Shown in pieces: positions 1 to 14,115 of a stretch of 14,115 nt of DNA (position 1 is its first letter; the number at the start of each line of letters is the position of its first letter). The DNA lies in assembly GCA_020283715.1 (NCBI GenBank), contig JAIQCW010000356.1, positions 1-14,115 of the forward strand. The letters are read 5' to 3'. Source of the DNA: Cytauxzoon felis. Its lineage: Eukaryota > Apicomplexa > Aconoidasida > Piroplasmida > Theileriidae. The notes beneath the pieces are model-generated. The model was given only the letters and a program-made list of their open reading frames with translations. It was not told the DNA's origin and did no database searches. The translations under genes were made by a program, and so were the position numbers.

Positions 1-51
1 TAACAGAGGTGAAGGTAGTGATTGGACCTCAGGTGGAGGACCTCGAGTGGA
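1..51 (+). repeat. Right end of a palindromic insertion element (copy U, truncated by window edge)
   Basis: ACCTCAGGTGGA at 26-37 is an exact match to the right terminal motif of the element family, and a second version (ACCTCGAGTGGA) follows at 40-51. The preceding GATTGG also matches the sequence next to this motif in other copies. The rest of the copy lies outside the window. Confidence 0.75.
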
Positions 52-82
52 TGTTTATTCTTTTGGGTATAATAATAATTAG
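2..82 (+). CDS. C-terminal end of an upstream gene (partial)
   Basis: An open frame enters the window at base 2 and runs 26 codons to a TAG at 80-82. Its first part (GEGSDWTSGG) is the right-hand end of the inserted palindromic element also seen in the other genes, read in the usual sense frame. Its last residues (VDVYSFGYNNN) look like host sequence. The identity of the gene cannot be judged from this stub. It could also be a final exon whose true frame is set by upstream splicing, although the element's standard frame supports the reading given. Confidence 0.5.
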   Translation, partial: NRGEGSDWTSGGGPRVDVYSFGYNNN

Positions 83-376
83 AAAATTTTTATGATTTAT
101 ATATATAAAAATATAATTAGGATTATTATTTATATATGATTTTTTGATATTCGTTATGTTATTGTGGGTGATGTGTATGTGGTTTAGACAATTGGATTAG
201 AGAGTTAAGGTTTAGTTTTGTATTTAATTTAGTTTTAGTTCATGTAACTATAATTAATATAATTTGTATATTTAATTGTGTATTTTATACATTTAATTAT
301 TATTTTTTTGTATTTATTGATATAGGTGTGTTGATATTGATGATAGATGTATACACATTTATGAAAATATGGTATA
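83..376 (+). promoter_or_regulatory. Intergenic region / 5' leader of the ferlin gene
   Basis: This stretch is very AT-rich, with a TATATATATAAAAATATAA-like tract just after the upstream stop and a T/G-rich tract at about 150-230. An in-frame stop (TGA 362-364) precedes the ferlin ATG. A short upstream ORF (ATG at 340, TAG at 388-390) overlaps the ferlin start in another frame and could dampen initiation if it lies in the mRNA. A 5' UTR intron is possible but not demonstrable. No promoter motif can be assigned with confidence. Confidence 0.4.
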
Positions 377-3300
377 ATGCCACGTTATAGTGTTAGTTTT
401 ACAATACATGAGGCATTATTTCCATCTATACGTACGGATAATCCAATAAATCCATTAATTGTGGTGAGATGTTTTGGTAATGAATTTACAACAAGTATAA
501 AATATTCAAAGACAATAGTATCATGTTGGGATGAAGGTTATCATTGGAATAATTTGGAATTATCAGAATATATATGGAATACAGGTATAATTGATTTTGA
601 ATTACAATCGGCTAATGCATTATGGCGTAATGATATATTAGGAACATCATCATTACAATTAAAATTGATATCAACATGTAAGAATAATACATTTATAGGT
701 AAGATACCATTAACGGCATTAAATTCTGTACGTATAATTGGTTATTTAAGTTTAACAATTAATGCATATGATTTATCACATGATAAATTGAATAATAATA
801 ATCAACCATATATAACTAAAGAATATGAGATTAAACAGCCTGTAAATTTGGAGATACCATCATTGATTGATCCACAGATTTATAGATCATTGAATATAAA
901 TGATGTTAGTAATACATATAAATATTTTCATTTATATATAAATATTTATACATTAGAGGATATACAAGTTGATTTATTATGTAATTATCCATATATTACA
1001 TGTGAATATGGTGGTTGTAGATTACAATCTACAAAGCCTATACGTATAAAATGTAAAGATTTATTAAATAATAATCAGATATCGCATAATATTATAAAGA
1101 GATCAAATTTTACATTTAATCAATGTTTTTTGATACCTATTAGTGTAATTATAGGTGAACCTACACTTGATGATAATATTATTATTAGAGTATGGATGAC
1201 TTCTACTATTGATTTACCTATTATTGGTAATGGTAAAGATAATGGTTTGATTAATAATACATCTATATCTTCAAGATTATTAGCTGAGGGTATATTTTCA
1301 TTAGCTGAACTTAGATCTAGAAAACAGGTACCTAGATGGTTTAATTTTTATAGAAGGGGTGGAAATGATAAAGATGGAGTTGGTAATGTAGTAGATGCTA
1401 CAAATTCATCATTATCCAATATCATGTATGATTATATTGGTAGAATATTATTAAGTGCTAGTGTTAAACGTATATTAAAGACATCTGATGTTTTAAAAGC
1501 TCATGTTATTTCATCACATCAAATGGAACCAATTTTACCAAGCCCTACTAGAATATTTTCAGATGTATTTATGATTGAATCTTCTTATAATTTTGGTTAT
1601 AATAATGAATTTCAAATATCACTTGAATTATCATGTGGTCCTTATACTACTAGTACTAATTGGCAATATGTTAAATTTAGAAATAATAATAATGATTATG
1701 GGGATAATTTCCCCCATAAGATTAAAGATGATGGGGTAAATTTATTAAATTTAGGTTGGTATTGTAATTATGATAATATAAATGGTAGATTAATACCATT
1801 AGATATATTAGTTGCATATAAATCTGATGAACAATGGTATATATTTATTAAAATATTTAGTAAATTGAATAATAATATCAAATTATTAGGATCTATCAAA
1901 TATACATTCAATGATATATCAAATTATACCATCAATAAATCCAAAATTCCATTCTGGATCTCATTACAATGTAATGGGGATAAATGGGGTAATTATGGGG
2001 TAAACCCTCCATTTTTGAATGTATTGATGACATTAGAGAAGCATATGTTTTATTCAGAGATGACGAATATATCAACAAATAATGAATATCGTATAATGAA
2101 TCAGCATCGTAGAATAACAATGATAAATATGAATTATGAATTAAGATGTTATATATATTCAATAATATTACCAGAGCCAATAAAAGAAAATATATTAGTA
2201 TCAATAATATGTAATGGTAAGATGAAAATGACTACATGTAGAAATAGGTATACAAGATTTCCAATATTTATGGAGTGTATAACAATACCAATAAATATAT
2301 TATCATGTCCAATAAGTATGATAGCAACACCAATACCAATAATGATTAATATATTAATTGGTAATAATAATAAATGTATATATACTAGTACTATAAATTA
2401 TAATCGTTTAATAACATCATCATCATCTACATGTAATAAATCTATAGCAGGTAAACCTAAATGGTTAAAATTAGGTAATGATAATTCATATATATTATTA
2501 TTTATTGATCTAATTAATAATAATAAATTACCAATCTATCAAATGATACCATTAGTTAAAAATATTAATATCAAATTAGGTATCTTAGGATTAAGAAATC
2601 TAATCACATGTAATAATATCAAAATCAAAGCTACAATACAAAATTATACAATCATTACTAATAAACAACAAGAATATAATATCAATTGTAAAATCACCAA
2701 TCATTGGATCACTAATAATCTACATAATTGTGATCTCTTCACCGTACAAAATCTCAATTTCAAAATACCAATCGAAACCATCTTCAATACACATCTAGAA
2801 CTCATCATCTATAATAACCAATACATCATCGGATACTGCTCATTCCCAATACATACACCCAATCCACCTGAGGTCCAATGCAACTCTATTCCACTACACT
2901 CCAACTCTCTTCATCCTGCCGTCAGCTCTTCTAATTACCTATCTCTAAAGAGTAGAGCCACTCCCGGAGATCGTGGCGGTGAAGGTAGAGATGGATCATC
3001 CATCATGGGAATGATGGAAGATGGTGCTAAGGATGTGTTGGATGTAACCTCAAGTGGACTACCCGCAGCTGATCTCAGGGAAGCGAAGGGACAGCTAAAT
3101 AAGGAAAGCCTCCACGGTGAGTGGAAGACCTCGGGTGGAGCATCTACTGGCTTACAATGTGAAAATATGAGGATTGCTATGAATGATGTAATGATATTGG
3201 ATGGTATAGATTGTTGTATGGAGGATTTGAGATATAGTATGGTACCTTATAAGATGTCGGAATTATTGGAATTATTACATAGGCAAAAGAATAAAAATGG

Positions 3301-5486
3301 TTATAATTTTGATGATATAAATATAAATTCTAATTATATAACACATAAAATTGGTATACCAGAGGTATTAGAAGAATTTGAATGCATTAAAGAATATAAA
3401 AAATTAAATTCATCATTATCTATTAATAATGTTAGTGTATATGTACCACCCAAATTTATATTAGCTGTCGATGGTAAAAAAATTATTAATAAATCATCTG
3501 TTGAATATACACTCGTTGCCGATCGACAACTCGATTATATACTCGATGATATACCATATAATATCATCACACTCAAACAACCAAATCATACAAACTCTCC
3601 ACCTGAGGTTACAGCCTCGCGTTCTCTTGCAGAGAGCTCTTCCAATTGCCTATCTCTAAAGAGTGATGCCACTCCCGGAGATCGTGGCGAAGGTAGAAGT
3701 GTAGATGGAATGAACAGTAGTACTGGACCTCAGGTGGAACCCGTAGCTGATCTCAGGGAAGCGGAGGGGGAAGTAAATAGAGAAGCTGACGGCAGGACGA
3801 AAAGAGGTGATAAGGCCTCAAGTGTAGGAGCTGATGTCAGGAATGTTATGGATAACAATCCATTACCGATAATGAAGTATTTTTTGACGATTGATGATAA
3901 GTATTGTTCATATAATATGGAATATAAAGATATAGCTATTGATTCTATTAAGATGTCTGATGCATTTAGAAAAGGTATTAAATCTACATTATATAAATTA
4001 CGATTTTGTATTGTATCTGCATCAAATTTTCAATTAGAGGGTAAATTAACCCCATATTTAGTAGTAGAGATAGCTAATAAAGAGAATAGGGAGATATTGA
4101 ATACACAATGTGATAGATTAACATCGGATATATATCGTATATATGAATATGAGATATTTTTACCAGAGAATTCATTAATAATAATAAAAGTTATATCATC
4201 AAATGAATATATTATGGGGGATATTAAAGAAGATATAATAGCAACAGGTTATATAGATTTAGAAAATCGTTGGTTTAGTAAAAAATGGCAACAAATGATA
4301 CGTAAAAATAATATACCAATAGAAAAAATCTATTTACAACATAATGGTAATATACAAGGCTATATTAATGCTATTATACATGTTACTAAATTAGAAAAAT
4401 ATACATTATTAAAACCATTAACATTTAATCATATACCTAATACATCTATTGAAATTAGAATTATAATATGGTCTACTCGTGGGGTAAAATTACCCCATGA
4501 CACCACAATTAAAGATGATAATATGTTAGATTTATATATGTTATCAACATTAGATTGTAAATCATATAATGGTATATATCCATTAATACAAAAAACAGAT
4601 GTACATTATAATTGTAATAATGGTAATGCTATCTTCAATTGGAGAATAGTATATCCAAATATTAATACACCATTAGGTACATGCCATCTACAATTAGCAT
4701 TATATGATTATTGGAAATTATCAAACCCAATATTTATAGGAGAAGCTAATCTCGAACTCAAACCATATATCAATATCGTATCATCTACATCAAATAAAAT
4801 CAATATCGATGGAGAAATACCGCTCATCAATACAAATACCAAAAATACACACGGTTATACACAAATCACACTACAAATACTCACTCAAAATGAAGCAACA
4901 TCCAAACCAGTATGTTTTACATTCACCCGAGGTTACATCCAACTCTCCTTCCACTCGGCGTGGAGCCCTCTTCCAATTACCTATCTCTAAAGAGTAAAGC
5001 CACTCCCGGAGATCGTGGCAGTGATGGAGGTGTGGATTGGACCCCGGGTGGAGACCTCAAGTGGACTACCCGGAGCTGATCTCAGGGAAGCGGAGGGGGA
5101 AGTAAATAAAAGAGCTGACGGCAGGACCAACAGTGGAGGCGAGTGGACGACCTCAGGTGGAAAGAAGAGTAATACTCTAACCTCAGGTGGATATGATAAA
5201 TATGTTTTTAATATAAATTTTCTTATAATATTAATATATAGGTGGGTTTGGCTAGGAATGAGCCGAATGTGAATCCATATTTGATGGCACCGAATATGGG
5301 TAGACAATGGCAGGATTGGTTGGCACATACAGGATTAACATTTGATTTTAGTGGTATAATGTTTTATGTAAGTAATAATTTAATAAATAAATATAAATAA
5401 TATTATAGATTAGAATATTTGGTACAATATTATTATTATTATGGATCTTCTTCATTTCATTTATTTATCCAGCACTACTCGTTTAA
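377..5486 (+). CDS. Ferlin: large multi-C2-domain, tail-anchored membrane-fusion protein (3 exons)
   Basis: Exons 377-4909, 5242-5367 and 5409-5486 join in phase 0 to give about 1,578 residues. Ferlins are Ca2+-responsive vesicle-fusion proteins; in apicomplexans they act in secretion of invasion organelles. C2-like segments are visible at about residues 1-130, 183-318, 583-681, 728-825, 1203-1300 and 1355-1480. The last two are the clearest: IDLENRWFSKKW matches the ferlin IDLENR motif, and QKTDVHYNCNNGNAIFNWR matches the QKTDVHYRSLDGEGNFNWR block of dysferlin C2G. After splicing, SKP joins VGLARNEPNVNP, equivalent to the ferlin RPAG-x-R-x-EPN motif before the membrane anchor. The last exon encodes 25 mostly hydrophobic residues (ILLLLLWIFFISFIYPALLV at the end), a C-terminal transmembrane anchor. 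Two palindromic elements add residues of about 829-921 and 1074-1150, between C2 domains; a third lies in intron 1. The start at 377 follows an in-frame stop at 362. The 3' end overlaps the adaptin gene. Confidence 0.9.
1696..1719. repeat. Inverted repeat TTATGGGG / CCCCATAA in ferlin exon 1
   Basis: A perfect 8-bp inverted repeat with an 8-base spacer, in coding sequence. It belongs to the recurrent G4/C4 motif class of this window. Confidence 0.6.
2863..3139 (+). repeat. Palindromic in-frame element, copy F1 (ferlin exon 1)
   Basis: Bounded by TCCACCTGAGGT (2863-2874) and ACCTCGGGTGGA (3128-3139). It is GC-rich against an AT-rich host and starts as PPEVQ. The left arm carries the CCTGCCGTCAGCTC module, then NYLSLKSRATPGDRGG (core) and TSSGLPAADLREAKGQ. 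The right arm carries the CCTCCACGGTGAGTGGA module. It is open through its whole length and lies between a C2 domain (ending at about residue 825) and the middle region. Confidence 0.9.
3598..3826 (+). repeat. Palindromic in-frame element, copy F2 (ferlin exon 1)
   Basis: The left terminus TCCACCTGAGGT (3598-3609) is exact; the right terminus is degenerate (GCCTCAAGTGTA, 3815-3826). The left arm uses the TCTTGCAGAGAGCTCT module, the core is ATPGDRGE, then QVEPVADLREAEGEVN, and the right arm uses GCTGACGGCAGGAC. Fully open in the ferlin frame. The left and right arms are different modules, so this copy is a mosaic. Confidence 0.88.
4480..4497. repeat. Inverted repeat TGGGGTAA / TTACCCCA in ferlin C2 region
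   Basis: A perfect 8-bp inverted repeat with a 2-base spacer, encoding RGVKLPH in the last C2 domain. Same G4/C4 motif class as the repeats at 1696 and 10640. Confidence 0.6.
4910..5241 (+). other. Ferlin intron 1, containing an element copy
   Basis: The donor is GTATGT at 4910 and the acceptor is TATATAG ending at 5241. Splicing joins codon CCA (P) to GTG GGT TTG, which restores the ferlin-family motif before the tail anchor; unspliced reading hits TAA at 4988-4990. Without the element the intron would be about 62 bp. An alternative that keeps part of the element and uses a smaller intron from 5204 (GTTTTT donor) is possible but needs readthrough of stops, so it is less likely. Confidence 0.8.
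4922..5191 (+). repeat. Palindromic element, copy F3 (inside ferlin intron 1, frame broken)
   Basis: Left terminus TTCACCCGAGGT (4922-4933); right terminus ACCTCAGGTGGA (5180-5191). It has the same modules as the exonic copies but an extra C in GAGCCCTC (4964-4970) relative to GAGCCTC elsewhere, and a second frame change near 5050-5070. The standard frame therefore ends in TGA, and the ferlin frame hits TAA at 4988. It is the only complete copy in the window that is not open, and it lies in an inferred intron. Confidence 0.87.
5368..5408 (+). other. Ferlin intron 2 (41 bp)
   Basis: GTAAGT at 5368 and ATTATAG ending at 5408 bound an AT-only intron with in-frame stops. Removing it joins FSGIMFY to IRIFGTILLLLLW in phase 0 and supplies the transmembrane tail every ferlin should have. 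The exact fit of frame, splice consensus and family expectation makes this call strong. Confidence 0.87.
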
Positions 5487-8400
5487 AAATGGATTCAATT
5501 GCTCAAATGCATCACCATTAATCTCATTCGATACATTTATATTCATGTCGTTCATAGTGTTATCTTGAACTCTTCTTCCATTAGAAGTGTAATCCGAATC
5601 TTCTTTCCACTCGCCTCCACTGTTGGTCCTGCCGTCAGCTCTTTTATTTACTTCCCCCTCCGCTTCCCATAGATCAGCTACGGGTTCCACTTGAGGTCCA
5701 GTCACTTTACTTCCGCCACGATCTCCGGGAGTGGCATCACCCATTAGGGATATTAAATTAGAAGAGGCCTCCACGGCGAGTGGAAGAGAGTTTGATTGGA
5801 CCTCGGATGGAATAGATTTGGATTGTACATTGGGTGACAATGATAATAGATTATCATTTGATATGATTGTATTATTATTTAAATTAAAATTATTTTTTTT
5901 ATGGGGTATTTTATCGAATAAATTTTTTAATAAATTTGGTTGTAGATCGATAATAATATCGAGTTCACATGATCTTTGTTGTAATTCGATATTAGGATGT
6001 CTTTTAAAACGTTTAATAATTTTTCTAATTCTTAAATGTTCATTTGGTAAATGTTTAATTAATTTACCTAAACATGTCAATAAATATTTACCACTTGTTA
6101 TATTATCATTTAAATTCGATAATATACGCTTACATACCAACTCTAATATATCCAATAATATAATACCATTCTTATTTATCATATCAATATGACTTGAATC
6201 ATTTATACCTGAGGTCTTTCCACTAGGCGTGGTGCCTTCTCCTTTTAGTTCCCCCTCAAACTCCCAGAGATCGTTTTCGGGTTCCACTTGAGGTCCAGTA
6301 CTACTCTTCATTCCATCTCCACCTGAGGTCGTCCTGCCGTCAGCTCTTTTAATTACCTCACCTCGACTCCCATGGATCGTCTCGGATTCTTCGCCACGAT
6401 CTCCGGGAGTGGCATTACCGTTTACGGGGAGATAATTGGAAGAAGGCTCCACGCCAAGTGGAACGGAAGGTGGAGATTGGACATTGAGATCCCAAAGATC
6501 GGATATGGATTTATCTTTATAATCGGAAGGTATGGTTGTTGTGGTAAATGAGAATGGATCATAATCTGACAATAAATTATCATTACTCTTATTATTATAA
6601 TCCAATGATAATAAATTAAAATCATCATTTAAATTATTATCATCTACACAATCATCCATTAAATTCAATAAATCATAATCACCAACTACACGAGGTTCAG
6701 TCCTATTCTTCTTTCCACCTGAGGTCGTCCTGCCATCAGCTCTTCCACCCGAGGTCGTCTTGCAGACAGCTTCTCTATTTACCTCCCCCTTCGCTTCCCT
6801 GAGATCAGCTCCGGGTTCCACTCGAGGTCCAGTACTATTCTTTATTCCATCACTACCTTCAACACCGCCACGATCTCCGGTAGTGGCATCACTCTTTAGA
6901 GATATTAAATTGGAAGAGGCCACCACGGCGAGTGGAAGAGAGGTGGAAGTGAGAGCAGACGTGGATTGGACCTCAGATGGTATTGTTTTCATATGTAAAT
7001 TGGGTAATTGGAATTGTAGTATATAATCTGTATATTCACCGATTGACCATAATGTAGCATTGACTAATGCATTTTGTCCTAGATTATTAATGAGATTATT
7101 TATGAGGTTGAGTGTTGTATAGATTTGTAAATTTTTAGGTGCTTGATTTAATAATGATATAAAATTAAATAATATAATGTCGGGTATATAATTACCCGCT
7201 ATTGTAAATAATTTAATTAAATATTGTAATTTATATTTATAATCATTACAATATATATTTAATATATTAAATATTTTTATTAATGATTGTTTTTTTAATT
7301 CATTATCTATTATTAATATATTTATTATATAATTAAAAAATATTTTATAATTATCCCCATTTATTAATTTTAACCCCACATCCAAAGCTCTTTTTCTTAT
7401 GGTGATATCGGGTTGATTAAATGATTGCATTATAATTATCCAATAATTATCCCCATATTCCATATTGATATTAGATAAGTAATTTAATATACCTAATGCT
7501 ATATATTTAATATTATTATTATTACCACATATAAATTTATTAACAACATCAATACCTAATTTATTAAATTTATTTATATTTAAATTATTATATATAGTAC
7601 GTATACATTCATATAATATTATATTATTATTTATATTATTTATTATCCTATATATTAAATTATATAATTCTTCTATTATATTCTTATCATCTTTTAATTC
7701 ATTCGTTACTATACGTATCAATTCTAATAATTTTATATATAAAAATGGATCATTTATACCACCTATCATATAATCTGTTATATTCATTACCCCAGTTGCC
7801 CCATTATTTCCAATAATCCCTACATTACTCCCCACATTACTATTATCTAATAGATCATTAATAGATTTAGTTAATAATTTGAATAATTGATGAAAATTAC
7901 ATACATTAGGATAATATTTAATAAGTGTAGACATTAAATTTAATCCAGACATAATAACACCATGATTAAAATCATTTAATAATAAATGTAAATAATTATA
8001 ATATAATTTAGCCATATTTAATTCAATAATATTGGGTTCAATAGATAATTCCCCATATTTACGTAACATACGATTAGCAACAATAGTAGCTTTTTTTTTA
8101 TATTAGGTATATTAGATTTTATTAAATATTCAATTTCATATTGTAATTCATTATACATTTCAATAGTACCAATATTACCTAATGATTTTAATGCTAATTC
8201 ACATGAATAAGGATTATTAGAATTTAAATCTAATTTTATACAATTTGTAGCTAACATTAATATCTCATTATCATCATTTAATAATAATGTTAATGCTAAA
8301 TAACCTATACGTTTATCATTAAATTTATTTGATGCTAATAATTTTATACATTCAATCTGACCAAAATTTACAGGATAACCCAATAAATGTATAAATAATA

Positions 8401-8545
8401 ATTTTGTTATATTCTTACGACGATATGATTCATTATTTAATGAACTACGTATCTTTGCACATTCTTTTGCTAATACAGAACGTTCCTCAGAGGATGTCTT
8501 GGAACTACGTATACTCCTAACCAACTCCTTCACCGATCCACTCAT
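5475..8545 (-). CDS. AP1G1: AP-1 complex subunit gamma (gamma-adaptin), with one-base frameshift
   Basis: This is the large subunit of the AP-1 clathrin adaptor, for trans-Golgi/endosome sorting. The N-terminus (MSGSVKELVRSIRSSKT...) matches the gamma-adaptin start. LLGYPVNFGQIECIKLLAS and DKRIGYLALTLLL match gamma rather than alpha adaptins. The frame breaks at a run of nine A (sense) at 8091-8099; one more A would give KKKATIVANRMLRKYGEL, as in the family, and about 1,023 residues in total. The trunk runs to about residue 515 (LWSIGEYTDYI) and resumes at about 785-875 (ILLDILELV, ELQQRSCELDI). Elements A1 and A2, and an acidic spacer with a clathrin-box-like LLSLD, fill what is a short acidic loop in other gamma-adaptins. 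A3 lies in the C-terminal hinge. The protein stops at LNPFLNE with no recognisable ear domain. The start at 8545 is chosen by homology; the frame stays open to an ATG at 8695, but that stretch is intergenic repeat. Confidence 0.9.
5577..5811 (-). repeat. Palindromic in-frame element, copy A3 (gamma-adaptin hinge)
   Basis: In gene sense it starts near TCCATCCGAGGT (5811-5800) and ends near ACTTCTAATGGA (5588-5577). It contains the TCCACTCGCCGTGGAGGC left arm, core ATPGDRGG, QVEPVADLWEAEGEVNK and the right arm GCTGACGGCAGGAC. It is open in the adaptin frame. Its ends are more diverged than in most copies, so the boundaries are approximate. Confidence 0.85.
6204..6474 (-). repeat. Palindromic in-frame element, copy A2 (gamma-adaptin trunk loop)
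   Basis: Sense left end TCCACCTTCCGT (6474-6463); right end ACCTCAGGTATA (6215-6204). The left arm is of the CACTTGGCGTGGAGC type, the core NYLPVNGNATPGDRGE uses the PVNG variant, and the interior holds a GCTGACGGCAGGAC module. The right arm contains CACCACGCCTAGTGGA, an inverted counterpart of the left arm. Fully open. Confidence 0.87.
6600..6614 (-). other. AP1G1: Clathrin-box-like motif LLSLD in an acidic spacer
   Basis: Between elements A1 and A2 the adaptin has an Asp/Asn-rich host segment (about residues 620-690). It includes LLSLD, which fits the clathrin-box pattern L-hydrophobic-x-hydrophobic-[D/E], and a DPF tripeptide nearby. In other gamma-adaptins clathrin boxes lie in the hinge. 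Short motifs of this kind arise easily by chance, so function is uncertain. Confidence 0.35.
6685..6981 (-). repeat. Palindromic in-frame element, copy A1 (gamma-adaptin trunk loop)
   Basis: Sense left end ACCATCTGAGGT (6981-6970); right end approximated by ACCTCGTGTAGT (6696-6685). An exact ACCTCAGGTGGA lies just inside it, at 6727-6716. The core is ATTGDRGG, the only change in the ATPGDRG signature. The right side carries two modules in a row, CTGTCTGCAAGACG and GCTGATGGCAGGACG, each followed by a terminal-like motif, suggesting stepwise growth. Fully open. Confidence 0.85.
8091..8099 (-). other. AP1G1: Frameshift site in gamma-adaptin (homopolymer A9 in sense)
   Basis: Nine T on the + strand (nine A in sense) separate two open frames that together make one colinear gamma-adaptin trunk. 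Upstream reads NIPNIKKK; downstream reads ATIVANRMLRK in the other frame. The family has RKKAALCA...IRK here, so a single missing A explains everything. A sequencing or assembly slip is most likely; transcriptional slippage or programmed frameshifting is possible. No intron with usable splice sites fits. Confidence 0.85.
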
Positions 8546-9003
8546 TTTTGAAGCGAAGAAGTGAGCGAACGAGTGAGCGAAGCGAAGGAGTGAATTGAAG
8601 CGAAGGAGTGAATACCAGAGGTTGTGAGTTATAGAGAGGAAGTGAGTAGAGAAGTTGTGAGTTGAAGCGAAGGAACGAGTACAATCAATTGTCATTTACA
8701 ATGAAGAATATCAGTAGTTACAAGTTGAAGCGAAGGAGTGAGTACCATCAATCATCATTCATATAAAATAAACACCACCTTCGTCATTTAAAGATAATAA
8801 ACATCAACCGTCATCATTCGTATAAAATAAATGTCAATAAATTATAATAAAAAAAATAAATCTTCATATAAATATACACTCAATGGGGAAGCTAATATAA
8901 AAGATGATTATACATCATGAAAATTTCCAATCTATGAAAATTACACTACACATTTATTTAAAAATGAATTTAATTAATTAAATTATTAATTTTAAATAGA
9001 ATA
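8546..9003. promoter_or_regulatory. Divergent intergenic region between gamma-adaptin and Scc3-like gene
   Basis: The two genes diverge from these 458 bp, so both promoters should lie here. The adaptin-proximal half (8549-8747) is G-rich on the + strand and made of dispersed GAAGCGAAGGAGTGA units. The middle holds two similar stretches with CATTC(A/G)TATAAAATAAA (about 8756-8772 and 8815-8832), whose TATAAAATAA cores resemble TATA elements. The Scc3-proximal 100 bp are almost pure A/T. In-frame stops just before 9004 exclude an N-terminal extension of the Scc3-like gene without a further exon. Confidence 0.55.
8549..8747 (+). repeat. Dispersed short repeats, unit TTGAAGCGAAGGAGTGA
   Basis: Units or close variants start at about 8549, 8579, 8595, 8662 and 8725. 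The 8595 and 8725 units extend to GA(A/G)TACCA, and the 8662 unit to CGAGTACA. They are not perfectly tandem; spacer sequence differs. On the minus strand they form the region just upstream of the adaptin ATG, so they probably sit in its promoter or 5' UTR. They share nothing obvious with the palindromic exon elements. Confidence 0.7.
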
Positions 9004-12000
9004 ATGACAGAATTATCCGATATTATTGATATATCAGATGATAACCAAAGTACAGATAGTAATGGAAGTGATGATAGTTATCATGATGATTATCAATCAT
9101 CAAAGGTTAATAAAAAAAAGAAGAAGAAAATAATTAAAATTAAACATCAAGACAATGATAATTTTAATGAATCATTGACATCATCAATGCTATTTCAAAT
9201 TGTAATATTAGGGAAAAGAACTAAATTATCATCATGTCTACAAAGATTATACCTATCTTTATCCTCAAATGATAAATATAACGTCATTGCTGATATACTA
9301 TGCCTTATATGCGAATGTGCAGGATTTAAACAATCATGCATTACACATGATATCATCAATGAAGAACATGATTCTGTCAAATATCATAGTGACTCTCCAC
9401 CTGAGATTACAACCACTGTTTCCACTAGGCGTGGTGCCTCTTCTAATTACCTATCTCTAAAGAGTAGAGCCACTCCCGGAGATCGTGGCGGTGATGAAGG
9501 TGATGAGGATGATGTAACCTCAAGTGGTCAACCCGGAAGAACGAAAAATGTAGCCCCTAAGAACAGGAATTCTACTCGGAAGAACAGAAATAATATACCC
9601 GGAGGAACAAAGAGTGTCAACCCGGAAGAACAGACCTCGAGTATAGTAGATGTAACCTCAAGTGGAGAACCCGCAGCTGATCTCAGGGAAGCGGAGGGAG
9701 AAGTAAAAGGAGGAGGCCTCCACGGCGAGTGGACGACCTCAGGTGGAACGGCGAGTGGTAAAGATAGGATTGTAACCTCAGATGGACATGATGACATAGA
9801 TGACTTAACTATTGATAGTTTCAATTGGTTTTATTTATCGGATTGTTTTAATAGAGAATTGGATATAAGAAAATTTAATTTGGATGATGATTTATGTAAA
9901 TTATTGCCATCATTTGATTTGGAGTTGTTATCATCGAGGATTTTACCTGATTCGGGTAATATATTAAAGGATAAGAAGTGTATATCATGGAAATTTTATA
10001 AATTTTGTATGGATAGGATTAAGAGGTTAACTAAATTTCTTATAATAAATGATGGTATGGGTATAAATATTAATTCTAAAAGTATTACATTTCAAAGATT
10101 TAAAGAATTTTTTTATAAATTAATTTATAATGTACCATTAAATTATATTAAAGATTTGATTTTATTATTACAATGGATATTTACTATGGGGTTATGTGGT
10201 TATAGATCTATAAGATTATTATCTACTATTGCTTGTAATGAAATTATTAAAGGTATATTAGATAGGATCCAATTATTAATTAAAGATGAACATATTTATA
10301 TTAAACAATTTAATATTGAATTTAATATTGAAAAAAATATAATTAAAAATAAAAGAAAATATGGGGATTCCATGAATAATGGGGTTGAAAAGAGTAGTAG
10401 AAATAAAGATGTAAATGGTATAAATAATAATAATTATAATTGTAAAGATATAAGTTCATCTACTATTGAATTATGGAATAGATTATGGTTAACACGTATG
10501 TCAAATGTAGTATTAAATAAATTCCTACTTGTAATCTTCAATATTAATTATACCACTAAATTATCTGATGTATTAATCGATATCAGAATCATTACAGCAT
10601 ATACATTATTAAATTGTATCATGTTCTATAAGAAATTTTACCCCATAAAATATTATATGGGGTTGTGTATGGAGATGGTACCGATAGGGGATGAGATGAC
10701 TAGAGTATTATTATTAAGAGTGGTATATATAAATGATATAGTAATAGATAAGGATATAATAATAATATTATATAAATTATATATAAATAATATAAATGAT
10801 AATGAATTATTAAATATAATAGAATTAATATTAATTAATGAGGTTAAAAAACCCAATACAATATTAAAATGTGGGGATAATAAAAATATAATAAATAATA
10901 TAATTAAATATTTAAAAATAAGATCATCATTATATCTATCATTATTATTCATATATATATACCTACCATTCATTAATATCAATAATTATCATATACCAAA
11001 TCTACTCTCAATCAATACATTCAAAAACAAAATCAAATCTATACTTACAATACATCAAACACACTCATACAATAATACACAGTACAATCCAACTGAGATC
11101 CAATCCAACTCTCTTCCTCTTGCAGAGAGCTCTCCTCCACCTGAGGTTACAACCTTGTCTTCCACTCGGCGTGGAGCCTCTTCCAATTCACTCCCCGTAA
11201 ACGGTAAAGCCACTCCCGGAGATCGTGGCGATATTAACCCGGAAGAACAGGAATTACCCGGAAGAACGAAGAGTGTAGCCCCTAAGAACAGGAATTCTAC
11301 CCGGAAGAACAAAGGTTGTCAACCCGGAGGAACAAAGAATGTCAACCCGGAGGAACATACCTCGAGTATAGTAGATGTAACCTCAGGTGGATTACCCGAA
11401 AACGATCTACGGGAGTTTGAGGGGGAAGTAAATGGAAGAGCTGTCTGCAAGACGAATAGAGGTGGTAGAGTTGAAGGTAGTGATATGACCTCAACTGGAG
11501 AACACAATGAGGTTACTATAGGTATGGGATCGTGTAAGGTATTGAGGGGTGAGGTGGTTGTATATGATAGGATATTGATATTATTGGATGGTGTAAAGGA
11601 TGTGATGATTGATGATGAAGAGGGTATAGATATATTTGTATATAATTTGATGATGAATGTATGGATGTATGATGATGTATTTACAAATGTATCATATATG
11701 TTAATATTATTATGTAAGGGTGGTGATAATGAATATGATATATATGGTATGGATATAATATATCAGAATATATTAATAAGATTTATATTATATAGTTTAG
11801 AAATATTAATTAAAAATAATGATAAAAATAATAATAATGAATTATTAAATATAATAAATTTAATATTAATATCAACATCAACATTAATAAAATTACATAA
11901 AGCTAATAAAATTAATTTAATTTTAATTATTAAAATTATTGAATTATCCAGTATCTTAATTAAAAAATTTAATATTAATAATTATAATAATATTATTAAT

Positions 12001-14115
12001 ACCATTTTCAATCTTATACCTATACTTATACCAAATAATTTCAATTGTATACTACCCATCATACGTATCATCCATAATCTTAACAATTATAATACCAAAT
12101 TAATCATCAATAAATTATATACACATCTTATCAAATATTTACACATCCAATACAAAACACTCGAGGTCACCTCTACCAACGGTCCAACCTCGCATTCTCT
12201 TGCAGAGAGCTCTCCACCTGAGGTCAGTCCTGCCGTCAGCTCTCCACTCGAGGTCCAATCCAACGTAGGTCCTCCTGCCGTCAGCTCTTCCAATTACCTC
12301 CCCGTAAACGGTAGAGCCACTCCCGGAGATCGTGGCGAAGGTAATGATGAGGATGATGTAACCTCAAGTGGTCTACCCGGAAGAACGAAAAATGTAGCCC
12401 CTAAGAACAGGAATTCTACCCGGAAGAACAGAAATAATATACCCGGAGGAACAAAGAGTGTCAACTCGGAAGAACGTGAAGGTAATGATGTAACCTCAAG
12501 TGGAGAACCCGCAGCTGATCTCAGGGAAGCGGAGGGAGAAGTAAAAGGAGGAGGCCTCCACGGCGAGTGGACGACCTCAGGTGGAACGGCGAGCGGTAAA
12601 GATAGGGCTGTAACCTCAGGTGGAAGTGAAAAGGATATATCATCAATTGATATTATAGATAATGAGATGAATGTAACAGAGATTGTATCAACAATTGATG
12701 ATATATCACCTACATTTAGCTGTATTAGTAATGATAATACCACAAATCTACCAGATTATATCAATCAACAATATTTATCCACCGAAGTCCAATCCAACTC
12801 TCCTTCCACTAGGCGTGGAGCCTCTTCTAATTACCTATCCCTGAAGGGTGATGCCACTCCCGGAGATCGTGGCGATGGTGATGATGAGGATTTACCCGGA
12901 AGAACGAAAAAAATATCAACCCAGAAGAACAGAAATAGTCTACCCGGAGGAACAAAGAGTGTCAACCCGGAAGAACGTGAAGCTAATGATGTAACCTCGA
13001 GTGGACTACCCGTAGCTGATCTCAGGGAAGCGGAGGGACAACTAAATAAAGAAGCTGTCTGCAAGACGACCTCAGGTGTAAAGGAGGTGGATTGGACTTT
13101 GAGTATGAAGGAATTGAATGGTAGAAAATCTCCATTGATATATGATTATATGATGGATGTTGAGGATATAAGGATGAAGATGTCTATGACTAAATTAGAA
13201 TTTGATATTGATATGAATGTTGATATGATTGATATATGGCTGATTGAGAATTTTAATTTATTGGATATAGATAATGATAGATATGATTGTTATATTAAAT
13301 TATTATTATATTTAATATATTATTTCCCATTAGATTTAGATTTATTAAATTGTTTATATATATTAGATTATATTAATAATATTAATTTATTATTAAAATG
13401 TAGTTTAATGTATGTATTATATGAATCTATTATTTATAAATTTATTAAATCTAATCATATCTATACTAATCTACAATTTATTAAACTTAAAAATAATCTA
13501 TTATCATTATTAATACATATTTGTAAATATGGGGGAAATTTTAATATAAATGGGGTAAATGGGGTAGAAAATAATGATTATTATAGATATATATGTATAG
13601 TATCGATATGTAATATAATACAATTGGAGAGGTTGATAGATGAGTATAGAGATGAAGATATAGATGATAATATAATATATAATATGTATAATATAATAAA
13701 TGAATTGATGAATAAAATAAGTATAAAGGATAAGATAAAGAATGAAATGATAATAAAAATATCAGATTTATATATAAAAAATAAAATTTATAATAAATTA
13801 AATATAATTGATATGTCATGTATAATAATAAAACAATTTACTACAGTATTTAATAATAATTTATATTCATCAAGTATTTCAATATATTTAATCTTACAGT
13901 GCAATCATATCAATCATAATATACGTAAATATATTAATCAATATCTTAAATTCCTATTCAAATTCAATAAAATACTTACACTCGCACTCTTTCTATATAT
14001 ACTCATCGGTCTATTCGAATCAACCAATCATAACCTCATCAATCAATTACAAAAACAATTCATCAATATCATCATCTATAAACATAAACGAATTAATACT
14101 TCCAATGCTCCACTC
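9004..14115 (+). CDS. SCC3: Cohesin subunit Scc3/STAG-like protein (3' end outside window)
   Basis: The frame is open from ATG 9004 to the window edge, 1,704 codons, without a stop; stops lie just upstream. Scc3/STAG is the HEAT-repeat cohesin subunit that binds the Scc1 kleisin and DNA. Residues 1-50 are acidic and Ser-rich, followed by a Lys-rich likely nuclear localisation signal (residues 37-47). Residues 60-115 (MLFQIVILGKRTKL, ICECAGFKQS) match the STAG start LFEVVKMGK...CSGCKG. The STAG domain resumes at about 300-430 (SWKFYKFCMDRIKRLTKFLI..., GYRSIRLLSTIA). About 490-580 resembles the stromalin conservative domain (LSDVLIDIRIITAYTLLNCI..., EMTRVLLLRVVYI). The rest is very Asn/Ile-rich helical sequence. 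Four palindromic elements interrupt it at about residues 132-261, 696-832, 1051-1207 and 1259-1359. The identity rests on motif similarity read by eye; another HEAT-repeat nuclear protein is the alternative. Confidence 0.78.
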   Translation, partial: MTELSDIIDISDDNQSTDSNGSDDSYHDDYQSSKVNKKKKKKIIKIKHQDNDNFNESLTSSMLFQIVILGKRTKLSSCLQRLYLSLSSNDKYNVIADILCLICECAGFKQSCITHDIINEEHDSVKYHSDSPPEITTTVSTRRGASSNYLSLKSRATPGDRGGDEGDEDDVTSSGQPGRTKNVAPKNRNSTRKNRNNIPGGTKSVNPEEQTSSIVDVTSSGEPAADLREAEGEVKGGGLHGEWTTSGGTASGKDRIVTSDGHDDIDDLTIDSFNWFYLSDCFNRELDIRKFNLDDDLCKLLPSFDLELLSSRILPDSGNILKDKKCISWKFYKFCMDRIKRLTKFLIINDGMGININSKSITFQRFKEFFYKLIYNVPLNYIKDLILLLQWIFTMGLCGYRSIRLLSTIACNEIIKGILDRIQLLIKDEHIYIKQFNIEFNIEKNIIKNKRKYGDSMNNGVEKSSRNKDVNGINNNNYNCKDISSSTIELWNRLWLTRMSNVVLNKFLLVIFNINYTTKLSDVLIDIRIITAYTLLNCIMFYKKFYPIKYYMGLCMEMVPIGDEMTRVLLLRVVYINDIVIDKDIIIILYKLYINNINDNELLNIIELILINEVKKPNTILKCGDNKNIINNIIKYLKIRSSLYLSLLFIYIYLPFININNYHIPNLLSINTFKNKIKSILTIHQTHSYNNTQYNPTEIQSNSLPLAESSPPPEVTTLSSTRRGASSNSLPVNGKATPGDRGDINPEEQELPGRTKSVAPKNRNSTRKNKGCQPGGTKNVNPEEHTSSIVDVTSGGLPENDLREFEGEVNGRAVCKTNRGGRVEGSDMTSTGEHNEVTIGMGSCKVLRGEVVVYDRILILLDGVKDVMIDDEEGIDIFVYNLMMNVWMYDDVFTNVSYMLILLCKGGDNEYDIYGMDIIYQNILIRFILYSLEILIKNNDKNNNNELLNIINLILISTSTLIKLHKANKINLILIIKIIELSSILIKKFNINNYNNIINTIFNLIPILIPNNFNCILPIIRIIHNLNNYNTKLIINKLYTHLIKYLHIQYKTLEVTSTNGPTSHSLAESSPPEVSPAVSSPLEVQSNVGPPAVSSSNYLPVNGRATPGDRGEGNDEDDVTSSGLPGRTKNVAPKNRNSTRKNRNNIPGGTKSVNSEEREGNDVTSSGEPAADLREAEGEVKGGGLHGEWTTSGGTASGKDRAVTSGGSEKDISSIDIIDNEMNVTEIVSTIDDISPTFSCISNDNTTNLPDYINQQYLSTEVQSNSPSTRRGASSNYLSLKGDATPGDRGDGDDEDLPGRTKKISTQKNRNSLPGGTKSVNPEEREANDVTSSGLPVADLREAEGQLNKEAVCKTTSGVKEVDWTLSMKELNGRKSPLIYDYMMDVEDIRMKMSMTKLEFDIDMNVDMIDIWLIENFNLLDIDNDRYDCYIKLLLYLIYYFPLDLDLLNCLYILDYINNINLLLKCSLMYVLYESIIYKFIKSNHIYTNLQFIKLKNNLLSLLIHICKYGGNFNINGVNGVENNDYYRYICIVSICNIIQLERLIDEYRDEDIDDNIIYNMYNIINELMNKISIKDKIKNEMIIKISDLYIKNKIYNKLNIIDMSCIIIKQFTTVFNNNLYSSSISIYLILQCNHINHNIRKYINQYLKFLFKFNKILTLALFLYILIGLFESTNHNLINQLQKQFINIIIYKHKRINTSNAPL
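9396..9786 (+). repeat. Palindromic in-frame element, copy S1 (Scc3-like gene)
   Basis: Termini TCCACCTGAGAT (9396-9407) and ACCTCAGATGGA (9775-9786). The left arm is TCCACTAGGCGTGGTGCC, the core NYLSLKSRATPGDRGG, then the gene-specific Arg/Asn module (9532-9631), EPAADLREAEGEVK and the right arm CCTCCACGGCGAGTGGA. Left and right arms are inverted versions of one another. Fully open. Interrupts the N-terminal STAG domain. Confidence 0.9.
9532..9631 (+). repeat. ~22-bp tandem repeat CCCGGAAGAAC inside element S1
   Basis: CCCGGAAGAAC-like units start at 9532, 9554 (CCCCTAAGAAC), 9575 (CTCGGAAGAAC), 9598 (CCCGGAGGAAC) and 9621, spaced 21-23 bases. The encoded peptide alternates PGRTK/PKNRN/TRKNRN/PGGTK. 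The module recurs in the three other Scc3 copies and is absent from the ferlin and adaptin copies. Confidence 0.8.
10640..10663. repeat. Inverted repeat ACCCCATA / TATGGGGT with 8-base spacer
   Basis: A perfect 8-bp inverted repeat inside the Scc3-like coding sequence. It coincides with a switch from C-rich sense sequence (10500-10640) to G-rich sense sequence (10660-10720), the same switch that brackets the palindromic elements, but no element is present. Confidence 0.6.
11088..11499 (+). repeat. Palindromic in-frame element, copy S2 (Scc3-like gene)
   Basis: Termini TCCAACTGAGAT (11088-11099) and ACCTCAACTGGA (11488-11499). The left side carries two arms in series: CTCTTGCAGAGAGCTCT, then a fresh internal CCACCTGAGGT followed by TCCACTCGGCGTGGAGCC. 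The core is SLPVNGKATPGDRGD, followed by the Arg/Asn module and LPENDLREFEGEVN. The right arm is AGAGCTGTCTGCAAGACG, the inverted partner of the first left arm. Fully open. Confidence 0.9.
12156..12624 (+). repeat. Palindromic in-frame element, copy S3 (longest; Scc3-like gene)
   Basis: Left end AACACTCGAGGT (12156-12167); right end ACCTCAGGTGGA (12613-12624). Three left arms in series: one TCTTGCAGAGAGCTCT and two CCTGCCGTCAGCTCT, separated by CCACCTGAGGT and CCACTCGAGGT. The core is YLPVNGRATPGDRGE. From about 12342 to the right end it is nearly identical to copy S1 apart from a few substitutions and a short indel at about 12475-12486. Confidence 0.9.
12778..13080 (+). repeat. Palindromic in-frame element, copy S4 (Scc3-like gene)
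   Basis: Left end TCCACCGAAGTC (12778-12789; one base short of TCCACCTGAGGTC), right end ACCTCAGGTGTA (13069-13080). The left arm is TCCACTAGGCGTGGAGCC, the core YLSLKGDATPGDRGD, followed by a shortened Arg/Asn module, then LPVADLREAEGQLN. The right arm is GCTGTCTGCAAGACG. Despite the indel at its edge the core is in the standard phase. Only 153 bp of host sequence separates it from S3. Confidence 0.88.
14109..14115 (+). repeat. Probable first bases of a further element copy (cut by window edge)
   Basis: The window ends in TCCACTC, the first seven bases of the terminal motif variant TCCACTCGAGGT seen at 12242-12253. The preceding ~130 bases have the C-rich, G-poor sense composition found before every other copy. 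Seven bases alone would be weak. Confidence 0.45.

Follow-up and report, generated by a model that had tools for sequence, protein, structure and literature searches.

What kind of DNA can recur ten times within 14 kb of a parasite nuclear genome, nine times in an open frame shared with one of three unrelated protein-coding genes? The question is raised by contig JAIQCW010000356.1 of the Cytauxzoon felis assembly GCA_020283715.1, the whole of which (positions 1 to 14,115, forward strand; C179 among the 181 contigs of the 8.62-Mb assembly) is called the window here. A first-pass annotation, made from the letters of the window, had described a family of short, GC-rich, palindromic elements with 12-bp inverted termini and had taken them for selfish DNA inserted into genes, a eukaryotic counterpart of the Rickettsia palindromic elements (RPEs). 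Our analysis argues, at a probability of roughly 0.75, for a modular repeat family, high in copy number and apparently non-autonomous, that has spread through a Theileria-related nuclear genome, is tolerated in exons, and is flanked by a halo of skewed base composition.

Ten matches to a 20-bp core were found in the window, nine exact and one with a single mismatch, compared with none in 200 dinucleotide shuffles. The copies around these cores, and a partial eleventh at the contig edge, are as follows.

1..51, plus strand: edge fragment consisting of a right arm and the right terminus, with a frame open until a stop near base 80 (by eye)
2863..3139, plus strand: copy 1, exonic and in frame, in the ferlin gene
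2958..2977, plus strand: 20-bp core CCACTCCCGGAGATCGTGGC of copy 1
3594..3801, plus strand: copy 2, exonic and in frame, in the variable ferlin linker before MKYFLTI
4922..5191, plus strand: copy 3, intronic, in the ferlin gene
5569..5811, minus strand: copy 4, exonic and in frame, beyond the part alignable with AP-1 gamma structures
6204..6463, minus strand: copy 5, exonic and in frame, between the stretches aligned to residues up to 496 and from 510 of 1w63_A
6714..6981, minus strand: copy 6, exonic and in frame, sharing the AP-1 gamma interval with copy 5
9396..9786, plus strand: copy 7, exonic and in frame, an alignment gap against the Theileria equi STAG protein
11088..11499, plus strand: copy 8, exonic and in frame, largely a gap against T. 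equi STAG
12158..12629, plus strand: copy 9, exonic and in frame, its left arms in tandem, a gap against T. equi STAG
12783..13099, plus strand: copy 10, exonic and in frame, a gap against T. equi STAG
3669, 5000, 5715 (minus), 6393 (minus), 6867 (minus), 9470, 11210, 12317, and 12854: starts of the other cores

The count of ten complete copies plus an edge fragment given by the first-pass annotation was reproduced, as was its description of nine exonic copies that are free of stops and read in one phase within unrelated genes, namely those for a ferlin (two copies), the gamma subunit of AP-1 (three copies), and a STAG-like protein (four copies). The ferlin frame read into the intronic copy 3 stops at position 4990, and the phase used by the exonic copies (the element phase) is open there for 61 codons only. 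The 12-bp terminal motif had 38 matches in the window at up to two mismatches (0.42 expected), many of them internal or in tandem; it is therefore a marker of arm units beyond the two element ends, so that the inverted termini described earlier are real but not confined to the ends.

The three host genes, and the intron that holds copy 3, lie as follows.

377..5486, plus strand: host gene 1, a ferlin/C2-domain protein, with exons 377-4909, 5242-5367, and 5409-5486, whose ends were placed by eye on the sequence, with the T. equi orthologue as a guide
4910..5241, plus strand: ferlin intron with copy 3, GTATGT...TATAG, its flanking exons matched by eye to the T. equi protein
5475..8545, minus strand: host gene 2, the AP-1 complex gamma subunit (gamma adaptin), searched as the pieces 5478-8102 and 8021-8545
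9004..14115, plus strand: host gene 3, a STAG/cohesin-SA-like protein, continuing past the window edge

The best match of the ferlin is T. equi BEWA_004780 (49% in the search and 52% over the alignment). Both AP-1 gamma pieces matched Adaptin_N, with AP-1 gamma as the top matches in the PDB, and the sole match of the STAG-like protein at E values up to 0.001 was T. equi BEWA_004800, which itself has a STAG domain. The segments could in principle be ancient parts of these proteins or native tandem repeats, for which their in-frame state, and nothing else, would speak. Copy 1 (ferlin residues 829 to 921), however, is missing from all eight aligned orthologues, where it would fall between the conserved stretches GYCSFPIH and DLRYSMVP; copy 2 occupies part of the variable linker. 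The four STAG copies are gaps in the alignment with T. equi, the sole orthologue found, copy 8 mostly so. For AP-1 gamma, query residues 31 to 365 align with residues 177 to 496 of 1w63_A and residues 649 to 735 with residues 510 to 592 (a weak second stretch, at 16.3 bits and an i-Evalue of 0.018), and between them 283 residues containing copies 5 and 6 replace 13 residues of the structure sequence. The insertions proposed by the first-pass annotation are thus absent from the ferlin (copy 1), STAG, and AP-1 gamma sequences compared, and DNA of the same family is also found outside exons. Ancient protein sequence is refuted for the copies compared with orthologues and is practically untenable as a general explanation.

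The behavior of the family in coding sequence was followed in a readable sample of about 251 kb (the window, 122 kb of contig C4, 80 kb of contig C9, and pieces of contigs C1 to C3), which holds 126 cores at up to three mismatches and 139 elements of at least 100 bp. Elements were classed by the coding signal of their unmasked flanks alone, so that the content of the element had no say. Same-strand coding sequence lies on both sides of 31 elements, and 29 of these keep the host frame through the element without an in-frame stop, over 36 to 175 codons. One of the others, C4:67415, is unusable for the frame test, having 17 bp of right flank and two stops; the last is taken up below. Of the 29, 28 have a core, in sense in every case, and one carries an extra antisense core. 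An open element phase was seen in 28/28 exonic cores, compared with 18/80 cores of the class "other" (P = 5e-14), and in 2/7 intronic, 0/9 unclustered, and 1/1 uncertain cores. Wherever a right arm was found, it was in phase with the core in exonic copies (26/26), compared with 36/79 non-exonic ones (P = 8e-8).

Only one of the element's six phases is commonly open; together with selection, this accounts for the sense bias and the single phase of the exonic copies. We rejected the idea of an intrinsically "designed" open frame: at least one phase is open in 22% of shuffled consensus sequences, and an ancestral open phase alone is therefore no evidence. The 82 copies classed as other contain 1.77 stops in the element phase versus 3.95 in their own shuffles. 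Substitutions in exonic copies showed no third-position excess common to both halves, which leaves selection on the peptide unsupported; since the frame is nevertheless kept, selection seems to act on the frame but not on the peptide, as would be expected of a passenger that the host tolerates. Exonic copies are thus very probably translated, as far as can be judged from sequence.

A different outcome, in which exonic copies are introner-like introns spliced at the GT and AG inside their termini (GAG^GT ... CAG^GT), would require neither an open element nor one in phase with its host, and the contrast between exonic and other copies would then have no reason to exist. Splice-like dinucleotides do occur in both termini, and some copies are intronic (for instance that at 4922-5191 in the window; 7/139 elements by the coding rule), but the intronic copy of the window has ordinary splice sites that lie outside the element. 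When splicing from the terminal GT to the terminal AG was tested by length modulo 3, the three classes (21, 16, and 10 pairs) gave a mixed picture. We consider splicing of the exonic copies very improbable.

Searched across the whole assembly, as the first-pass annotation had envisaged, the family proved abundant: the core matched 2,851 times at up to three mismatches (1,410 forward and 1,441 reverse), or about once per 3 kb, compared with 0 matches for a backward-pattern control. Masked clusters of the family cover 9.5% of C4 and 16.3% of C9 by an older, less complete mask, and self-BLAST at a depth of at least 3 covers 13.6% and 18.7%, some other repeats included. The exonic share is 9/10 in the window, 7/26 in the pieces of C1 to C3, and 13/103 in C4 and C9 together (13 exonic, 6 intronic, 2 uncertain, and 82 other), so that the window is exceptionally dense in exonic copies compared with C4 and C9. 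Coding segmentation marks 37 to 47% of C4 and C9 and missed at least one intron-bearing gene, which makes the exonic and intronic counts lower bounds. Insertion into genes, as first described, therefore holds for the exonic in-frame copies, whereas most sampled copies lie outside recognized exons. Extrapolating from 13/87 cores in C4 and C9, the genome might contain about 430 exonic cores, as a rough figure. In a six-frame search with the consensus peptide, which is biased to intact frames, 150 of 4,600 candidate places were scored; of these, 59 fall within open frames at least 300 amino acids long (up to 3,670). A Pfam scan of 13 of the 15 listed host frames outside the window matched seven, with LCCL, WD40, beta-lactamase-like, FAINT, CAF1B/HIR1 propeller, zf-CW, and DEAD (below the cut-off) domains; frame C9:21639-23271 combines a FAINT domain with an element. 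By eye, further copies appear to lie in introns at about 18.5 kb of C9, in a CCT chaperonin subunit-like gene that the coding segmentation missed, and at C9 34401-34672, in an Hsp60-like gene.

The element is a mosaic of small predicted hairpins with compensatory stems. Its left half, delineated by eye and by alignment, runs 5' to 3' from the terminus TCCACCTGAGGT through an arm with one hairpin module, of which there are at least six kinds, to TCTTCYAATTACCT. The hairpin directly before the core has three forms, CTCTAAAGAG, CCGTAAACGG, and CCCTGAAGGG. After the core come a linker, an inner ACCTCAAGTGGA, and a hairpin around GATCTnnGGGA (with the stems GCT/AGC, AGC/GCT, or AAC/GTT), followed by AAGTAAATAGAAG, one more module, and the terminus ACCTCAGGTGGA. 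In the first hairpin, four of four positions are paired in 116 of the 126 copies (shuffle mean 73, maximum 84); in the second, three of three are paired in 100 of the 108 copies containing it (shuffle mean 68, maximum 80). The core itself is exact in 56 of the 126 copies and within one mismatch in 112. Matching of arm modules was considered and rejected, 24/110 being the same versus 21.3 by shuffle; modules thus combine independently.

Terminal inverted motifs and an even distribution over the strands (1,410 and 1,441 cores) would fit a classical family of miniature inverted-repeat transposable elements (MITEs) or foldback elements, mobilized in trans by a DDE transposase since lost or too diverged. 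So would a relative of the element in which inverted right arms flank a conserved AT-rich interior of about 250 bp.

L032:640-1130, L034:5300-5790, and similar: examples of the interior-bearing relative

A 32-mer from this interior has 259 genome matches at up to three mismatches, and one long-armed example folds at z = −11 (DNA). A non-coding RNA was considered and rejected: Rfam gave no match in the window at gathering scores, and its matches in the relative fall far below them. Against a MITE, target-site duplications showed no clear excess over shuffled pairs among 57 terminus-bounded elements and 136 flank pairs, in a test repeated with a corrected element mask. The profiles MULE, DDE_3, rve, and Y1_Tnp had no match in the genome at E values up to 0.001, with positive controls; hAT and piggyBac had none either, though their controls stayed silent. 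Mobilization in trans by such a transposase is a serious candidate, if one at less than even odds. The sole RVT_1 locus found in the genome is telomerase (Telomerase_RBD plus RVT_1; G000:C56:73693-74436, L051), and the RVT_1 search, which a strongly diverged reverse transcriptase would escape, found no other reverse transcriptase.

Beyond the hairpin mosaic, a second feature was newly seen: the DNA around the elements is itself skewed. Across copy 1, GC skew rises from −0.57 to +0.54 in 200-bp bins, with the following flanks.

2713..2862, strand not applicable: host codons on the left side of copy 1, illustrating the C-rich left halo (200-bp bins)
3140..3400, strand not applicable: flank on the right side of copy 1, illustrating the G-rich right halo (200-bp bins)

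For 108 non-exonic elements, the first 100 bp have a skew of −0.29 to the left and +0.28 to the right, which fades by about 400 bp. The arrangement C-left/G-right is found for 65/107 non-exonic elements (reversed in 5) and for 11/17 exonic ones in plus-strand genes (reversed in 0), compared with 23/219 random places, 60 of which are reversed; random places lean the opposite way because they are situated between halos. Aligned on 122 cores, the sign changes within the core and the skew reaches about 350 bp to each side, with no visible step at the element ends; the exact change point is partly dictated by the conserved core sequence. Nineteen core-less elements have flank skews of −0.27 and +0.29. 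In non-exonic flanks the left side has shifted chiefly from T to C and from G to A, the right side from A to G and from C to T. The strand enriched in A-to-G and C-to-T is the one leading 5' to 3' away from the core. The halo is present on both gene strands, and transcription of the host gene is therefore an unlikely cause. Resection of double-strand breaks was rejected, as by our reasoning it would give the opposite sign.

The left arms of the element are themselves rich in C and the right arms in G, and arms can stand in tandem, so that the halo might consist of decayed outer arms of older copies; alternatively, the element might prefer targets where a skew flip already exists. Both readings are countered by the host codons themselves. 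Within 150 bp, the third positions of single-copy exons have 255 C and 44 G on the left and 263 G and 60 C on the right; element by element (n = 29), 26 agree and 2 disagree on the left, and 25 and 2, respectively, on the right, the effect being weaker in minus-strand genes. It persists in conserved codons, defined as ferlin codons whose residue recurs in one of five orthologues of the Theileria clade and STAG codons that T. equi shares: within 150 bp there are 39 C and 1 G of 151 on the left and 17 G and 2 C of 66 on the right. Beyond 600 bp there are 8 C and 46 G of 433 on the left; the right, with 9 C and 5 G of 52, goes against the trend. The median skew flip is 0.62 for exonic elements (n = 29, range −0.26 to 1.83) and 0.50 for non-exonic ones (n = 92), compared with 0.00 at positions with no element within 500 bp (95th percentile 0.46, n = 1,327) and −0.02 at such positions in coding sequence. 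That 2 to 4% of element-free positions reach the medians of the elements is what a target preference would have in its favor; we think both this and decayed arms improbable. Such high-flip positions may be scars of lost copies.

Replication origins show a skew jump, and host-useful sites, for example bidirectional starts of transcription or replication centered on the core, could have been multiplied for their function rather than selfishly. The strong conservation of the core and a skew that is symmetric about it over some 350 bp would both suit this reading. A core about every 3 kb, even within the exons of AP-1 gamma and the STAG-like protein, would not, nor would the absence of the elements from the compared proteins of relatives, and we regard useful sites as rather unlikely.

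We return to a repeat family that spreads and is tolerated. Each copy is, on this account, a chain of small hairpins around the conserved 20-bp core, bounded by 12-bp inverted motifs, and we are highly confident that exonic copies are translated as peptides of about 36 to 175 residues tolerated by the host protein. The halo may record RNA or DNA synthesis that proceeds outward from the core, with the displaced strand left single-stranded and, in that state, prone to C-to-T and A-to-G changes. With low confidence, we suggest that the same hairpin-and-displacement process might also copy the element; the failure to find target-site duplications or a transposase would then be explained. Tentatively, and with more doubt than conviction, the family could represent a novel class of element, copied by strand displacement that runs outward from a fixed 20-bp core and involves neither a transposase nor a target-site duplication. 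Such an element would use interchangeable, structure-first hairpins, have an exon-compatible phase, and rewrite the base composition and codon use of its host up to about 350 bp per side.

Several observations weigh against this account. Mobility is deduced from the distribution of the family, and the missing target-site duplications, transposase, and non-telomerase reverse transcriptase count here as they do for a MITE. The copies are diverged: high-scoring segment pairs of at least 100 bp have a median identity of 77.7% and a 99th percentile of 89.4%, and therefore no recent burst is visible in the sample. The selfish element of the first-pass annotation thus stays plausible, with these points against it. 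The covariation of the hairpins is based on a few haplotypes, and single copies fold only slightly better than shuffles (z = −1.75 for 9396-9786 as RNA and −1.09 for 3598-3810 as DNA); the term palindromic, used from the start, suits single copies weakly. Translation is argued from the reading frame, and one C4 element, at about 121763-122000, breaks the frame on its left side: the right exon (uS9m-like by eye) is in frame, and the left frame of 496 codons stops within the element. Exonic elements in minus-strand genes have a reversed halo in 3/12 cases (C-left/G-right in 5/12), and one exonic element has a flip of −0.26. The third-position shift in exons includes apparent transversions and is not purely transitional, and both the cause of the halo and the directions of substitution are read from base composition.

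Among known systems, RPEs come closest in behavior. They are short (about 150 bp) dispersed repeats, many of them in frame in unrelated genes, to which they add a peptide; 44 insertions in Rickettsia conorii genes, and nearly half of RPEs in open reading frames, are described in the review PMC10969869. The piroplasm repeat is likewise dispersed and in frame in unrelated protein genes (29/31 candidates), with one open phase adding a predicted peptide on which no constraint was seen. Unlike the bacterial RPEs of Rickettsia, it lives in a piroplasm, with 2,851 cores and 13/103 sampled elements in exons. The likeness is one of behavior, and no kinship is claimed. As a eukaryotic analogue of RPEs, the family has the nuclear apicomplexan host, the in-frame copies absent from compared orthologues, and the tolerance by the host that had been proposed, although exons are not its usual location. 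The halo is, as far as we know, the part least like any known system; for RPEs we know of no flanking skew.

With MITEs and foldback elements the family shares short length, inverted termini, high copy number, and the lack of a visible coding gene, and the interior-bearing relative, with its inverted arms and AT-rich interior, is foldback-like: long inverted arms built of short sub-repeats about a loop are seen in one example of it, and weakly in two core-bearing copies. The family differs from MITEs in that neither a target-site duplication nor a transposase was found. Introners have inverted ends. Like them, the family has many related copies, some intronic, but its exonic copies preserve the reading frame, for which an intron has no need. 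Palindromic DNA that encodes protein has also been described as PARCELs, with tandem 25-residue repeats (PMC2996958), and in the mitochondria of Nematomorpha, as coding palindromes (PMC6649704); the piroplasm family shares this property and differs in being dispersed, rather than tandem, and nuclear, rather than mitochondrial. LINE-like elements are reported in T. equi and some Babesia (PMC9141347), whereas telomerase is the only RVT_1 locus found here, unlike in LINE/SINE systems. The same survey, "Mobilome of Apicomplexa," reports that C. felis, T. parva, T. annulata, and T. orientalis yielded no transposable elements and 64 genomes no class II elements, MITE candidates having been discarded (PMC9141347), and a T. 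parva study states that transposable elements had not been found in Theileria to date (PMC2612703).

At E values up to 10, no relative of the copy 1 peptide was found among proteins of about 830 to 2,642 amino acids (database of 5.8 billion; 118 word-sharing candidates). Papers screened by title and abstract opening, largely outside subscription journals and not for flanking skew, contained no description of such a family, in agreement with the earlier remark that no apicomplexan family of this kind was known. Yet some 10 to 19% of the sampled C4 and C9 consists of one repeat family in a species for which the survey reported no transposable elements. If our account is correct, protein-compatible selfish DNA is not confined to bacteria, and hundreds of parasite proteins may hold foreign segments, which bears on gene annotation. 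The halo, a strand-asymmetric footprint at very many sites of one genome, offers a testable handle on the action of the element on DNA.

The host genome is apicomplexan, nuclear, and that of a piroplasm of the Theileria clade, as judged by its genes: in a tree of nine ferlin proteins, the window species formed a branch of its own within a group that includes T. equi and Theileria (100/99); support was lacking for one inner fork, and the tree tool flagged the composition of the window's row. The G+C content of the sampled sequence is 30 to 33%, and the published C. felis genome has 9.1 Mb and 31.8% G+C (PMC3748084).

Within the window, the frame of AP-1 gamma breaks between its two Adaptin_N pieces at 8092-8103, at nine consecutive T (A9 in the coding direction); this is likely a homopolymer sequencing error or a slippage site. 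The 3' ends of the ferlin (plus) and AP-1 gamma (minus) genes overlap by about 12 bp at 5475-5486 (by eye). AP-1 gamma sits between the ferlin and STAG genes, whose T. equi counterparts are numbered BEWA_004780 and BEWA_004800, and gene order may be conserved. Outside the window, short repeats that do not belong to the family, at about 21.0 to 22.0 kb and 49.7 to 51.1 kb of C4, resemble copies of a protein gene family, and internal repeats (GGTTGAGTTGAACCAAATAG...) at 37.3 to 39.2 kb of C4 look, by eye, like a repeat-rich nucleoporin gene.

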